NCBI GenBank assembly: GCA_900318625.1
Contig: ONLG01000042.1
Location: 1 to 42,088, forward strand
Direction of reading: 5' to 3'
Source of the DNA: an uncultured Prevotella sp.
GTDB taxonomy: Bacteria; Bacteroidota; Bacteroidia; Bacteroidales; Bacteroidaceae
DNA: 42,088 bases
Position 1 is the stretch's first letter, and each line of letters opens with the position of its first letter. The position numbers and the translations under genes were made by a program. This document shows, in pieces, positions 1 to 40,746 of this stretch. The notes below the pieces were generated by a model. It was not told the origin of the DNA and did no database searches. It was given only the letters and a program-made list of their open reading frames with translations.

Positions 1-148
1 AACCCCTCCCCAAGGGTTGAAGGCTCAGGCGAACCTACCCCTAACCCCTCCCCAAGGGAGGAAGGCTCAGGCGAACCCACCCCTAACCCCTCCCCAAGGG
101 AGGGAGGCTCAGGCGAACCCACCCCTAACCCCTCCCCAAGGGAGGGGG
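1..148. repeat. 42-bp tandem repeat inside trmO
   Basis: Three consecutive 42-bp units start at 1, 43 and 85, with a partial fourth at 127-148. Each unit holds CCCCTCCCCAAGGGAGG followed by CTCAGGCGAACCCACCCCTA. Units differ at only a few bases. 42 is divisible by three, so changes in copy number keep the trmO frame. The core CCCTCCCCAAGGGAGGG is palindromic and resembles the intergenic G/C palindromes near 25105, 25755 and 32290. Confidence 0.9.
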
Positions 149-13507: not shown

Positions 13508-13592
13508 TGGGGCCTATAGGTCTAATAAGACTTATGTGACTTATAGGTCTTATAGGCCCTATGGGAAAGTAATATGACTCATATTACTTTCT
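13508..13592. repeat. Partial copy of the composite intergenic repeat
   Basis: It carries CTATAGG/ACTTATAGGTCTTATAGG-type units, followed by TAATATGACTCATATTA, a palindrome. Both modules occur in the fuller copies at 24929-25131 and 32350-32560, but the ATGAATAATGAAC and CCCCCCAAGGGGGG modules are absent here. Confidence 0.7.
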
Positions 13593-17128: not shown

Positions 17129-17261
17129 GGGGGAAGGGGCAGGGGGGAAGGGGCAAGAGGATAGTTTTAGCCTGCTTGATTCCCCAAAAGACAGTTAGAG
17201 CTTTTGCGGGCTGCGGACACATGAACTATTCTCTTGCCCCTTCCCCCCTGCTCCTTCCCCC
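17129..17261. repeat. 39-bp inverted repeat spanning the ispH 3' end
   Basis: Arms at 17129-17167 and 17223-17261 pair over 39 bp with three mismatches. The arms read GGGGGAAGGGGCAGGGGGGA and onward to CAAGAGGATAGTTT. They enclose 55 bp that include the ispH stop codon (17195-17197). The right arm codes for the C-terminal tail of IspH. Confidence 0.85.
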
Positions 17262-18142
17262 TTGCTCTGTCCCTCTTCTATGGCGAGTATGCGGTCGCGA
17301 CATTCTTCCATGAGCCACTTTGGGGTGCTGGTGGCACCGCAGATGCCTATCGTCTGAACGCCCTCAATCCATTGTGGGGCTATCTCTCGGGCACTCTCGA
17401 TGTGGTAGCTGTTGGGGTTCACGCTGCGACATTCGTTGAAGAGCACCTTTCCGTTTGAACTCTTGCGGCCCGACACGAAGAGCACGAGGTCGTGTCGGGA
17501 TGCAAACTCGGCAATGTGGGGCATACGGTTTGCCACCTGTCGGCAGATGGTGTCGAAGCTTCGGAAGGTGGCTTTGGGCGAGATGTGCTCCTGGATGTAG
17601 GCAATGATGCGGTGGAAATCGTCCAAAGACATGGTTGTCTGAGAGTAAAGATAGATGTCGCGGTTGAAGTCCAGTCGCTTCACTTCCTCGAAATGCTCAA
17701 TCACTATGGCGTGGTTGTCGGTCTGGCCGACGAGTCCCAGCACCTCGGCATGGCCGTTCTTGCCGAATATAACGATCTGTGCGTCGGGGCAATCGTCGTA
17801 CTGCCGGCGTATTCTTCGCTGCAACTGAAGCACCACCGGGCACGTGGCATCTCCGTGCGCTCTCAGGAGCACCTTGGCATCGTGGAGCTCGGACATCTGG
17901 TCGTGATTGATGGTCACGAGTCCGCGTTGGGTGAGGCGTTCCACCTCCATTGAGTTGTGGACAATGTCGCCCAGACAGTAGAGCACGGCTCCGGAAGACT
18001 CCCTCTGTTCCCCCTCGGGGGGGAGAACGGACTGCCCCTCGTGGGTGTGGGCGTATTGATGCAACTCTTCTTCGGCTTTCTTTATGGCTGTGGTTACGCC
18101 GAAGCAGAAGCCGCTGCCCTCGTCAATCTCTACCTGAAACAT
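17195..18142 (-). CDS. ispH: 4-hydroxy-3-methylbut-2-enyl diphosphate reductase IspH, with unusual insertion, deletion and tail
   Basis: IspH is the [4Fe-4S] enzyme making IPP and DMAPP in the last step of the MEP pathway. All three cluster cysteines are present: C13 (GSGFCFGV), C101 (DATCPVV) and C200 (DTICRQVANR). H62, H96, H131 and E133 correspond to E. coli H41, H74, H124 and E126. Spacing is odd. C13-H62 is 49 residues instead of 29, because about 20 extra residues (YAHTHEGQSVLPPEGEQRES) lie before LYCLGDIVHN. H96-C101 is 5 instead of 22, so the helix and strand normally between AHG and DATCP are missing. The last 25 or so residues (GQSKGEGAGGKGQE...) come from an inverted-repeat arm. 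All changes keep the frame. It lies 7 bp after the DUF1573 gene. The family is certain; normal activity is doubtful. Confidence 0.92.
   Translation of the reverse strand: MFQVEIDEGSGFCFGVTTAIKKAEEELHQYAHTHEGQSVLPPEGEQRESSGAVLYCLGDIVHNSMEVERLTQRGLVTINHDQMSELHDAKVLLRAHGDATCPVVLQLQRRIRRQYDDCPDAQIVIFGKNGHAEVLGLVGQTDNHAIVIEHFEEVKRLDFNRDIYLYSQTTMSLDDFHRIIAYIQEHISPKATFRSFDTICRQVANRMPHIAEFASRHDLVLFVSGRKSSNGKVLFNECRSVNPNSYHIESAREIAPQWIEGVQTIGICGATSTPKWLMEECRDRILAIEEGQSKGEGAGGKGQENSSCVRSPQKL
17990..18055 (-). repeat. G/C palindromic element embedded in the ispH coding sequence
   Basis: On the minus strand, CTCCCCCCCGAGGGGGAACA followed by GAGGGAGTCTTCC resembles the intergenic element at 25106-25135 (CCCCCCTTGGGGGGACCGAG, then GGAGC). 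It encodes the extra 20 or so residues of IspH in frame. Boundaries are approximate. Confidence 0.7.
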
Positions 18143-24928: not shown

Positions 24929-25131
24929 AACCAATATGGCCCATATTGGTCGGTAATATGGGCCATATTGGTGAGTAATATGGGCCATATTGGTTAATGA
25001 ATAATGAACAATGAATAATGAACAAATACCTCCTGCCGTAAGGCTCTACTATAAGGCATATAAGTCCTATAAGTCCCATAAGACCTATAAGTCCTAAAGA
25101 TACTCATCCCCCCTTGGGGGGACCGAGGGAG
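24929..25131. repeat. Composite intergenic repeat, copy 1
   Basis: Modules in order: three palindromes centred on ATATGGGCCATAT (24930-24991); an A/T-rich module with two copies of ATGAATAATGAAC (24996-25023); AGGCTCTACTATAAGGCATA, then several CCTATAAG/CCCATAAGACCTATAAG units (25041-25098); AAAGATACT; then CCCCCCTTGGGGGG (25109-25122) and ACCGAGGGAGC. The same module order in the opposite orientation is found at 32350-32560. It fills most of the 478-bp gap between two divergent genes; no gene was recognised there. Confidence 0.85.
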
Positions 25132-25216
25132 CTTTTTTTGGGGGGATTGAGAGGGGCCTCCTTATCCCCCGCAGCATGCAAAATGTCATTTTTCTGCAAC
25201 TTCTTTTGCCAAAGAA

Positions 25217-25741: not shown

Positions 25742-25850
25742 GCCCACCCCACGGCCCCCCCTATCCCCCCCAAGGGGGGAAGAAGTACACTCATAGAAAG
25801 CAACAGCAAGATAATTATTCGTTATGCATTATTCATTAAACATTAGATAA
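25742..25850. repeat. G/C palindrome and ATTCATTA module downstream of bcp
   Basis: CCACGGCCCCCCCTATCCCC continues into CCCAAGGGGGGAAGAAG (palindrome near 25765-25782). Further on is TTATGCATTATTCATTAAAC, similar to the ATGAATAATGAAC module of the composite repeat. Neither codes for anything recognisable. Confidence 0.6.
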
Positions 25851-32279: not shown

Positions 32280-32349
32280 AGCCCCATTCAGTCCCCCCAA
32301 AGGGAGCCCCCCTCGGTCCCCCCCAAGGGGGGAAGAAAAGCCCCTCTCA
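32280..32349. repeat. G/C palindrome cluster after the tatD-like gene
   Basis: AGTCCCCCCAAAGGGAGCCC, then CCCTCGGTCCCCCCCAAGGG and GGGAAGAAAAGCCCC lie immediately after the stop codon. They are copies of the same palindrome family as at 25106 and 25755 and run directly into the composite repeat at 32350. Confidence 0.75.
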
Positions 32350-32560
32350 ATCCCCCCAAGGTGGGGGAGAGTATCTTTAGGACTTATAGGTCTTATGAGA
32401 CTTATAAGCCTTATATGCCTTATAGTAGAGCCTTTCGGCTCCCCCAAGGGGGGAAGAGGTATTTGTTCATTATTCATTGTTCATTATTCATTAACCAATA
32501 TGGCCCATATTGGTCGGTAATATGGCCCATATTGGTCGGTAATATGGCCCATATTACTTT
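32350..32560. repeat. Composite intergenic repeat, copy 2 (inverted relative to copy 1)
   Basis: In plus-strand order: CCCCCCAAGGTGGGGGAGAG, TATCTTTAGGACTTATAGG with several ACTTATAAG-type units (32372-32423), TATAGTAGAGCCTTTCGGCT, a CCCCCAAGGGGGG palindrome (32441-32453), TTCATTATTCATTGTTCATT (32466-32493), then three ATATGGCCCATAT-type palindromes (32494-32556). Reverse-complemented it matches 24929-25131 module for module; AGGCTCTACTATAAGGCATA is identical in both. Copy 2 also has a second C/G palindrome between modules. Confidence 0.85.
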
Positions 32561-32666
32561 GCTTTAAGCCCCCTACCTTGGGCTGGGGCGGACTGTAGAG
32601 TGAGTAATTGAACCTTAAAATAGTTTAAAAACTCGCGGCAAACGCTGTTTTTACGATATAATAGTC

Positions 32667-40617: not shown

Positions 40618-40681
40618 TAGGATAGACATTTTTAACACTTCTCCCAGGGGCTCCGTAAACTTTCTCCAGCAGCCCCGGAGT

Positions 40682-40746
40682 AATGTTACAGGATAGTTGT
40701 AACAGTGCTCCAGCTGCTCTGTAGCAATGTTACAGGATAGCTGGAG
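40682..40746. repeat. Direct and inverted repeats upstream of the TlpA gene
   Basis: AATGTTACAGGATAG occurs at 40682-40696 and 40726-40740. TGTTACA (40684-40690) pairs with TGTAACA (40698-40704). CTCCAGCT (40708-40715) pairs with AGCTGGAG (40739-40746). The elements overlap, so alternative hairpins are possible. Confidence 0.65.

Follow-up and report, generated by a model that had tools for sequence, protein, structure and literature searches.

Background

Palindromes embedded in proteins are on record for Rickettsiales and for certain REP-rich genomes (PMC2229807, PMC3733652). The Rickettsia palindromic elements (RPEs) lie between genes as well as in frame within conserved proteins (PMC2229807). 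In several species, open reading frames (ORFs) contain REPs and dimers of REPs, and CGTC repeats have been reported in Bacteroidetes (PMC3733652). As for the DUF559 domain, one such protein from Caulobacter is regarded as a repair enzyme of the Vsr-like type (PMC12907096), Legionella segments that carry a transposase together with DUF559 are hotspots of mutation and recombination (PMC12308824), and Vsr-family nuclease fusions have been catalogued (PMC3710099). A search of the open-access literature returned no text that contained both DUF559 and an inverted repeat and, among the texts listed, no report of a link between palindromes and DUF559.

The elements described here were found in and around a window of 42,088 nt, by which is meant the whole stretch of DNA analysed (contig ONLG01000042.1 of the uncultured Prevotella sp. 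assembly GCA_900318625.1). Their likeness to RPEs and to the protein-coding palindromes of Wolbachia is one of kind, judged by description: both reside in intergenic DNA and in frame in conserved proteins. RPEs are 105-146 bp long and no linked enzyme is described in the consulted part of the report (PMC2229807), whereas the Prevotella elements have arms of 30-40 nt, form doublets, and include units that contain DUF559. A first-pass annotation of the window, made from the sequence alone, had proposed that ispH carries an intergenic-type palindrome in frame, as one of a family of protein-embedded repeats comparable to RPEs but in Bacteroidota. Its observation was partly confirmed and its interpretation is supported; the DUF559 link lay beyond what that annotation could see. 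Features of the window are collected in Table 1.

Table 1. Positions of the ispH features and of the palindromic element copies in the window
Feature	Position	Strand	Evidence
ispH (LytB), 315 aa, insertion host	17195..18142	-	Pfam LYTB
In-frame insertion, IspH residues 28-52, 75 nt	17987..18061	-	Alignment; AlphaFold2 pLDDT <50 at residues 35-50
Junction of 17-aa in-frame deletion, between G97 and D98	17851..17852	-	Comparison with 109/109 relatives
Class A element, right half of ispH insertion: hairpin plus repeated G-run arm	17992..18029	-	R1 22.3 bits; nhmmer; shuffles
Probable eroded inverted partner, left half of ispH doublet	18026..18061	-	Shuffle test
Intergenic class A copy used in the first-pass annotation	25101..25138	+	R1 E=3.1e-5; training set
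Intergenic class A copy	25749..25786	-	R1 E=2.8e-5; training set
Intergenic class A copy	32301..32338	-	R1 E=5.7e-8; training set
Intergenic class A copy forming a tandem with that at 32301..32338	32338..32371	-	nhmmer E=4.9e-8; training set
Weak class A-like copy	32423..32460	-	R1 E=0.376
Two exact class B copies (76-102, 118-144), array with 42-bp spacing	76..144	-	Exact pattern

The insertion in IspH

About 20 extra residues had been counted between the first cluster cysteine and the histidine of the VHN motif, and this count was borne out. The insertion replaces four residues of most relatives in the alignment, a net gain of 21, and the Cys-His spacing of 49 compares with 28 in 100 of 109 other IspH sequences and with 29 (two), 31 (one), 34 (one), 35 (four) and 37 (one, the maximum) in the others; the 109 sequences come from two overlapping samples and are not all independent. 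The long spacing is confined to the present protein among these 110 sequences, and the insertion is therefore no family trait. When the protein was aligned with 29 homologues of the genus, the segment HQYAHTHEGQSVLPPEGEQRESSGA, located between the first helix and LYCLGD, was found solely in the present IspH. Because different insertions, 3-9 residues long, also occur at this site in seven of the 109 relatives, the loop is regarded as permissive. In an AlphaFold2 model built with 33 sequences (mean pLDDT 76.9), the insertion sits between helix 14-33 and strand 54-57.

A segment of 17 residues (51 nt), which all 109 relatives have between RAHG and DATCP (105 by pattern, four by eye), is missing from the same protein; both flanking motifs are kept. 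This loss, together with low AlphaFold2 confidence at the junction (residues 95-99) and the state of the source genome (an 85%-complete draft in 87 contigs), could indicate that ispH has recently become a pseudogene or was joined wrongly in assembly, its insert then lying outside a working protein. That reading is judged rather unlikely, since all 315 codons read through without interruption, the protein shares 76-81% identity with 32 aligned relatives (33 rows used out of 45), and the cluster cysteines and the HN, HG and HAE motifs, to which we ascribe functional roles, are retained; a second ispH was looked for and none was found. With the 17 residues missing, ispH is possibly a decaying gene or one that encodes an unusual enzyme. 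Because the gene may be decaying, it is weak evidence that inserts are tolerated, and that argument is carried by MiaB, PrmC, RibD, LeuS and MetH rather than by ispH.

Two families of palindromic elements

Alignment of the palindromes gave a consensus, designated class A, that consists of a hairpin plus a repeated C/G-run arm, TCCTCCCCCCTTTGGGGGGATTGAGGGGGGCT, with a unit of about AAGCCCCCCTCAATCCCCCCAAAGGGGGGAAGAA; the units are often arranged as inverted doublets. C-run/G-run palindromes gave 17 overlapping matches with at most one mismatch in the window, against 1.14 expected. Across the 2.38-Mb genome, the class A pattern had 45 exact matches and the reversed pattern none. The class A model gave 52 genomic matches at E<=0.001 (150 of 552 candidates scored), most of which are training copies. 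A sister family, class B (CTCCCTTGGGGAGGG..GGGGTGGG), is represented in the genome by 58 exact copies versus none for reversed-pattern controls. Stop codons are absent from the class B consensus in all six frames and from that of class A in five of six, so that in-frame insertions of either can survive. Two tandem arrays of three class A copies in the same orientation were observed elsewhere in the source genome, beside argB or in a long open frame (L015 and L098).

Among 150 genomes of the genus, class A was present in at least 47 in a scan of 45 candidates per genome, and class B was patchy, being found in 38 (source genome included) with 1 to 58 copies each. The end motif GCCYACC..GGTRGGC served to recover ten class B doublets, 92-150 nt long, all of them in loci of a single genome (G128), and the doublet in MiaB of that genome folds at z=-10.8. 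Target duplication was looked for in these ten through doublet length modulo 3 and the flanks; none was found, and the lengths vary. Two further analyses were set aside: 16 Rfam matches at E<=0.1 in six element loci were all below gathering scores, mostly of miRNA type, and were taken as chance, and a permutation of stem pairing returned 100% by construction, since the stems had been picked for perfect pairing.

The claim that the ispH DNA matches the intergenic element held in profile-based searches and failed in plain BLAST. An nhmmer profile made from 34 other copies, with that of ispH excluded, matched 17999-18027 on the minus strand with E=0.013 in the 42-kb window, and the covariance model R1, made from 31 other copies and likewise without that of ispH, scored the insert at 22.3 bits, which corresponds to E=0.067 in a genome-wide scan that scored 150 of 552 candidates. 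A plain BLAST comparison of the insert with the genome yielded no significant match. The alignment score of the right half with the consensus was reached by 0/1000 dinucleotide shuffles, and that of the left half with the inverted consensus, spacer TCAAT included, by 8/1000. The left half aligned with the direct consensus had its score reached by 144/1000 shuffles, and nhmmer did not detect this half in the window. The single-strand fold of the insert is no better than that of shuffles (z=0.15), and for this reason, together with the missing BLAST match, the copy is judged to be eroded. Class A doublets in other genomes include some of about 75-80 nt and others that are longer; the ispH insert has 75 nt and is probably a decayed doublet of this class. 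For the doublet form, one shuffle test, that of the left half against the inverted consensus, provides the evidence, the comparison of the two halves with each other being weaker (51/1000).

It was also considered that the stretch is an ordinary GC-rich loop extension, produced by slippage or local duplication, and that its likeness to the palindromes arose by chance. The 3-9-residue inserts at the site in 7/109 relatives, the eroded match, the lack of a BLAST match and the ordinary fold would all suit such an origin, which is nevertheless very unlikely in view of the profile match, the low shuffle frequencies of the right and left halves (0/1000 and 8/1000), the position of the match in the sole long insertion of IspH, and the copies carried by nine other genes.

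In-frame copies in other proteins

Class A or class B copies are in frame in miaB, prmC, ribD, comM, dsbD, wbqC, argC and the gene of a C1-like peptidase in the source genome, and an element joins a DUF559 domain to ispF in frame, which brings the number of genes besides ispH to nine. Four of the 52 class A matches at E<=0.001 lie in frame in Pfam-recognised genes (Peptidase_C1_2-like, argC, comM and wbqC). Within the loci examined, which represent a subset of the copies, class B is in frame in miaB, dsbD, ribD, prmC (three), argC and the DUF559-ispF junction. Gene context of class A was checked for 86 of 103 model matches, short and partial ones being omitted, and one of the 86 was without a locus; the 144 matches of the in-frame copy search count both strands and thus represent about half as many palindromes. 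All five class A gene copies show same-strand orientation, too few to count. Such copies also occur in frame in other Prevotella genomes, and class B inverted doublets of G128 were found in frame in MiaB, LeuS, MnmG and phosphomannose isomerase.

Homologues were compared for five of the ten genes (ispH, miaB, prmC, ribD and comM), and the element was absent from them in 5/5. The element-encoded residues are extra relative to the solved structures of MiaB (7mjv), PrmC (2b3t), RibD (9no2) and ComM (8rxd). Two MiaB sites are reciprocal between genomes: one is filled in the source genome and empty in G128, and the other shows the opposite state. The same repeat is thus intergenic and in frame in several proteins, with the insert absent from homologues wherever these were checked, as in elements of the RPE kind. 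A protein-embedded family in Bacteroidota, as first proposed, is accordingly supported by ispH and the nine genes, by the other Prevotella genomes and by the homologues. The annotation had named trmO as an earlier example in the window; this gene had to be dropped, as no TrmO was found there by motif search or by Pfam search of 42 of the 136 listed ORFs, the rest of which are mostly overlapping.

Inverted palindromes around DUF559 genes

The DUF559 domain (PF04480) is fused or adjacent to several element copies and is present in 87 of the 150 genus genomes. In the source genome, each of the two DUF559 genes is flanked by class B arms on either side. Bracketing was measured by aligning the 350 bp to the left of DUF559 with the reverse complement of the 350 bp to the right, at a threshold score of >=16. 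The genus sample took the 30 DUF559 loci that scored highest in the genus search, with a single locus from each genome. In this sample, 26/30 loci were bracketed by inverted arms at this threshold and 24/30 at a score of >=20, and four (L323, L333, L341 and L342) were without clear arms. Neither control reached the threshold: 0/93 for ispH loci with full flanks (maximum 13) and 0/58 for outer windows of the same DUF559 loci (maximum 12.5). Contig ends cut loci L321, L351, L353, L355, L360, L366 and L374, leaving less than 90 bp on one side of L351, L360 and L374. The aligned arms are mostly palindromes of hairpin type.

Among named isolates, DUF559 occurs in 18/34 genomes, and 14/18 full-length loci, several of which share genomes, reach the threshold (e.g. 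Prevotella denticola and Hallella bergensis). A further 11 matches to DUF559, partial or weak, were counted separately; four of them, from two genes matched twice each, reach 16. A phylum-wide sample, which includes one source-genome locus (L365), gave values above threshold for 7/17 short-frame and 4/13 long-frame loci (11/30). On plasmids of other phyla, for which eight of 40 records were sampled, 4/8 DUF559 loci reach the threshold (Deinococcus, Pseudanabaena, Sphingomonas and one Picosynechococcus). The Pseudanabaena DUF559 gene (L428, NZ_AP017561.1) is bracketed by arms with CCCCCTAAATCCCCCAATTCTGGGGG, a class A-like design in another phylum. In viral contigs, nine pattern matches for DUF559 contained no relatives.

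Class A flanks DUF559 in five loci, which were chosen for adjacency and do not give a rate (G023, G062, G065, G088 and G131), and in G065 it lies on both sides. DUF559 is present in 34/38 genomes with class B versus 53/112 without it (Fisher p=2.8e-6, shared ancestry ignored); DUF559 was not found in one genome with five class B copies (G100), which is 73% complete. In G051 (L382, 642-1195), a DUF559 gene lies within a unit of 554 bp whose class B ends are GCCCACC..GGTGGGC, and the sequence directly after this unit resembles the start of folD.

REPs, REPINs (BIMEs) and REPtrons likewise comprise short palindromes of high copy number, inverted dimers, copies in ORFs and a repeat-flanked enzyme gene (PMC3733652). 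Inverted dimers have their counterpart in the ten class B doublets and in the class A doublets of other genomes. It was therefore considered whether the Prevotella elements are usual REP/REPIN elements moved by a Y1 (RAYT-like) tyrosine transposase, with DUF559 incidental, for which the doublet architecture and residence in ORFs, as described for REPs (PMC3733652), and the presence of Y1_Tnp in 87/150 genus genomes can be cited. This appears highly improbable. By inspection, the GTAG/CGTC tag is absent from the class A consensus, the class B pattern and the class B doublet ends. The source genome has just one partial Y1_Tnp match (C41:79851-80066), some other genus genomes having full-length ones, and one genome with 35 class B copies (G019) has no Y1_Tnp. 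Neither class is associated with Y1_Tnp in the genus genomes, the domain being found in 24/38 with class B versus 63/112 without (p=0.57, shared ancestry ignored). Moreover, the gene flanked in Prevotella is DUF559, of the PD-(D/E)XK/Vsr-like type, not a Y1 transposase, and it also resides in frame in host proteins.

DUF559 domains inside host proteins

DUF559 interrupts host proteins in frame in LeuS (three loci), MetH (two), an ABC-F-like ATPase, a helicase, MazG and HsdR, and also in Ham1 of Prevotella sp. DNF00663. Arms above threshold were found in 4/10 of these cases (LeuS L370, MetH L357, helicase L336 and MazG L325) and were weak or absent in 6/10. In LeuS L370, 163 aa lie between the positions of residues 235 and 237 of the Thermus thermophilus LeuS structure (2v0c/1h3n). 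DUF559 also precedes IspF, guanylate kinase, RNase H, SpoU or ArgB in one frame, and such fusions are often made through element-encoded linkers, e.g. PLPSGGVGGG. An intein or other self-splicing insertion was considered and is not supported, as Pfam recognised only DUF559 and no splicing domain between the host domains in nine proteins, and no Rfam intron reached the gathering threshold in the window or in loci L241, L283, L015 and L098.

Among solved proteins, the domain matches the endonuclease-like 3hrl (E=6e-18) and has a weak match to 3r3p (E=0.009), a mobile-intron protein that we take to be I-Bth0305I. With the Vsr/EDxHD homing endonucleases represented by 3r3p, the Prevotella units share this weak relationship and scattered insertion in conserved genes; they differ in that no intron or intein was recognised and in that they often have inverted-palindrome ends and many short derivatives. 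DUF559 could accordingly be a passenger, a homing-type endonuclease that invaded pre-existing palindromic doublets moved by another enzyme. The shared ends of arm-spacer-arm and arm-DUF559-arm units, the weak relationship to a mobile-intron protein, and the large excess of solo and doublet copies over the source genome's two DUF559 genes would fit this alternative. It is nonetheless thought unlikely: another arm-linked enzyme was not found, Y1_Tnp being the sole alternative examined, and the arms match each other within a DUF559 locus and differ between loci, which is the expectation if arms and gene travel together.

Proposed mechanism

The favoured explanation, which we hold to be fairly likely, is that ispH received, in a permissive loop and with the frame kept, a non-autonomous copy of a DUF559-linked palindromic mobile element, which has since decayed. 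The arm-DUF559-arm unit would be the autonomous form, whose Vsr-like endonuclease may move the arm-bounded DNA by cutting either that DNA or the target. Palindromes that occur singly or as doublets would be solo or internally deleted derivatives of this form. Insertions out of frame in genes would be lost by selection, and those in frame in loops would persist and erode, as in ispH. One family comprising an autonomous unit, deleted doublets and solo arms is the simplest account. We infer that DUF559 is the mobiliser; it may be cargo and not mover, in which case the arms could have another engine. The elements resemble IS-derived MITEs in being short and non-autonomous, with inverted ends and a relationship to longer gene-carrying units, and differ from them in that the gene between the arms is DUF559 and in that no target duplication was found.

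More broadly, and with slightly more doubt than conviction, it is suggested that palindrome-bounded DUF559 units form a distinct class of mobile element that spans the phylum. In this class, a Vsr-fold endonuclease would move DNA that lies between short hairpin arms, and since these arms are open in almost every frame, the entire element with its enzyme could reside in frame in essential proteins, LeuS and MetH among them. The dispersed GC-rich Prevotella palindromes would be its miniature derivatives and the ispH insert a worn one, and the C-run palindromes beside cyanobacterial and Deinococcus DUF559 genes would perhaps be likewise. We know of no engine for the protein-embedded palindromes of Rickettsia. 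In the present case, palindromes reach housekeeping proteins of common Bacteroidota, and there is a directly testable candidate for their engine in the small Vsr-like endonuclease whose gene lies between palindromes of this design. If the proposal is true, it would provide a function for DUF559 and explain in-frame linkers of several proteins, and it would bear on how genes are annotated and which natural homologues are chosen.

Other repeats in the window

Tandem palindromic repeats of 22 bp around AATATGGGCCATATT were observed in intergenic DNA at 24929-25013 and 32493-32577, and similar stretches adjoin class A copies on other contigs. Tandem repeats of 9 bp, of the ATAAGNCCT type, adjoin palindromes at 13511-13562, 25055-25088 and 32372-32423; these are open in frame and encode YKTYKS-like peptides. 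A 44-bp direct repeat, with two copies that are 77% alike, is located at 40655-40742.
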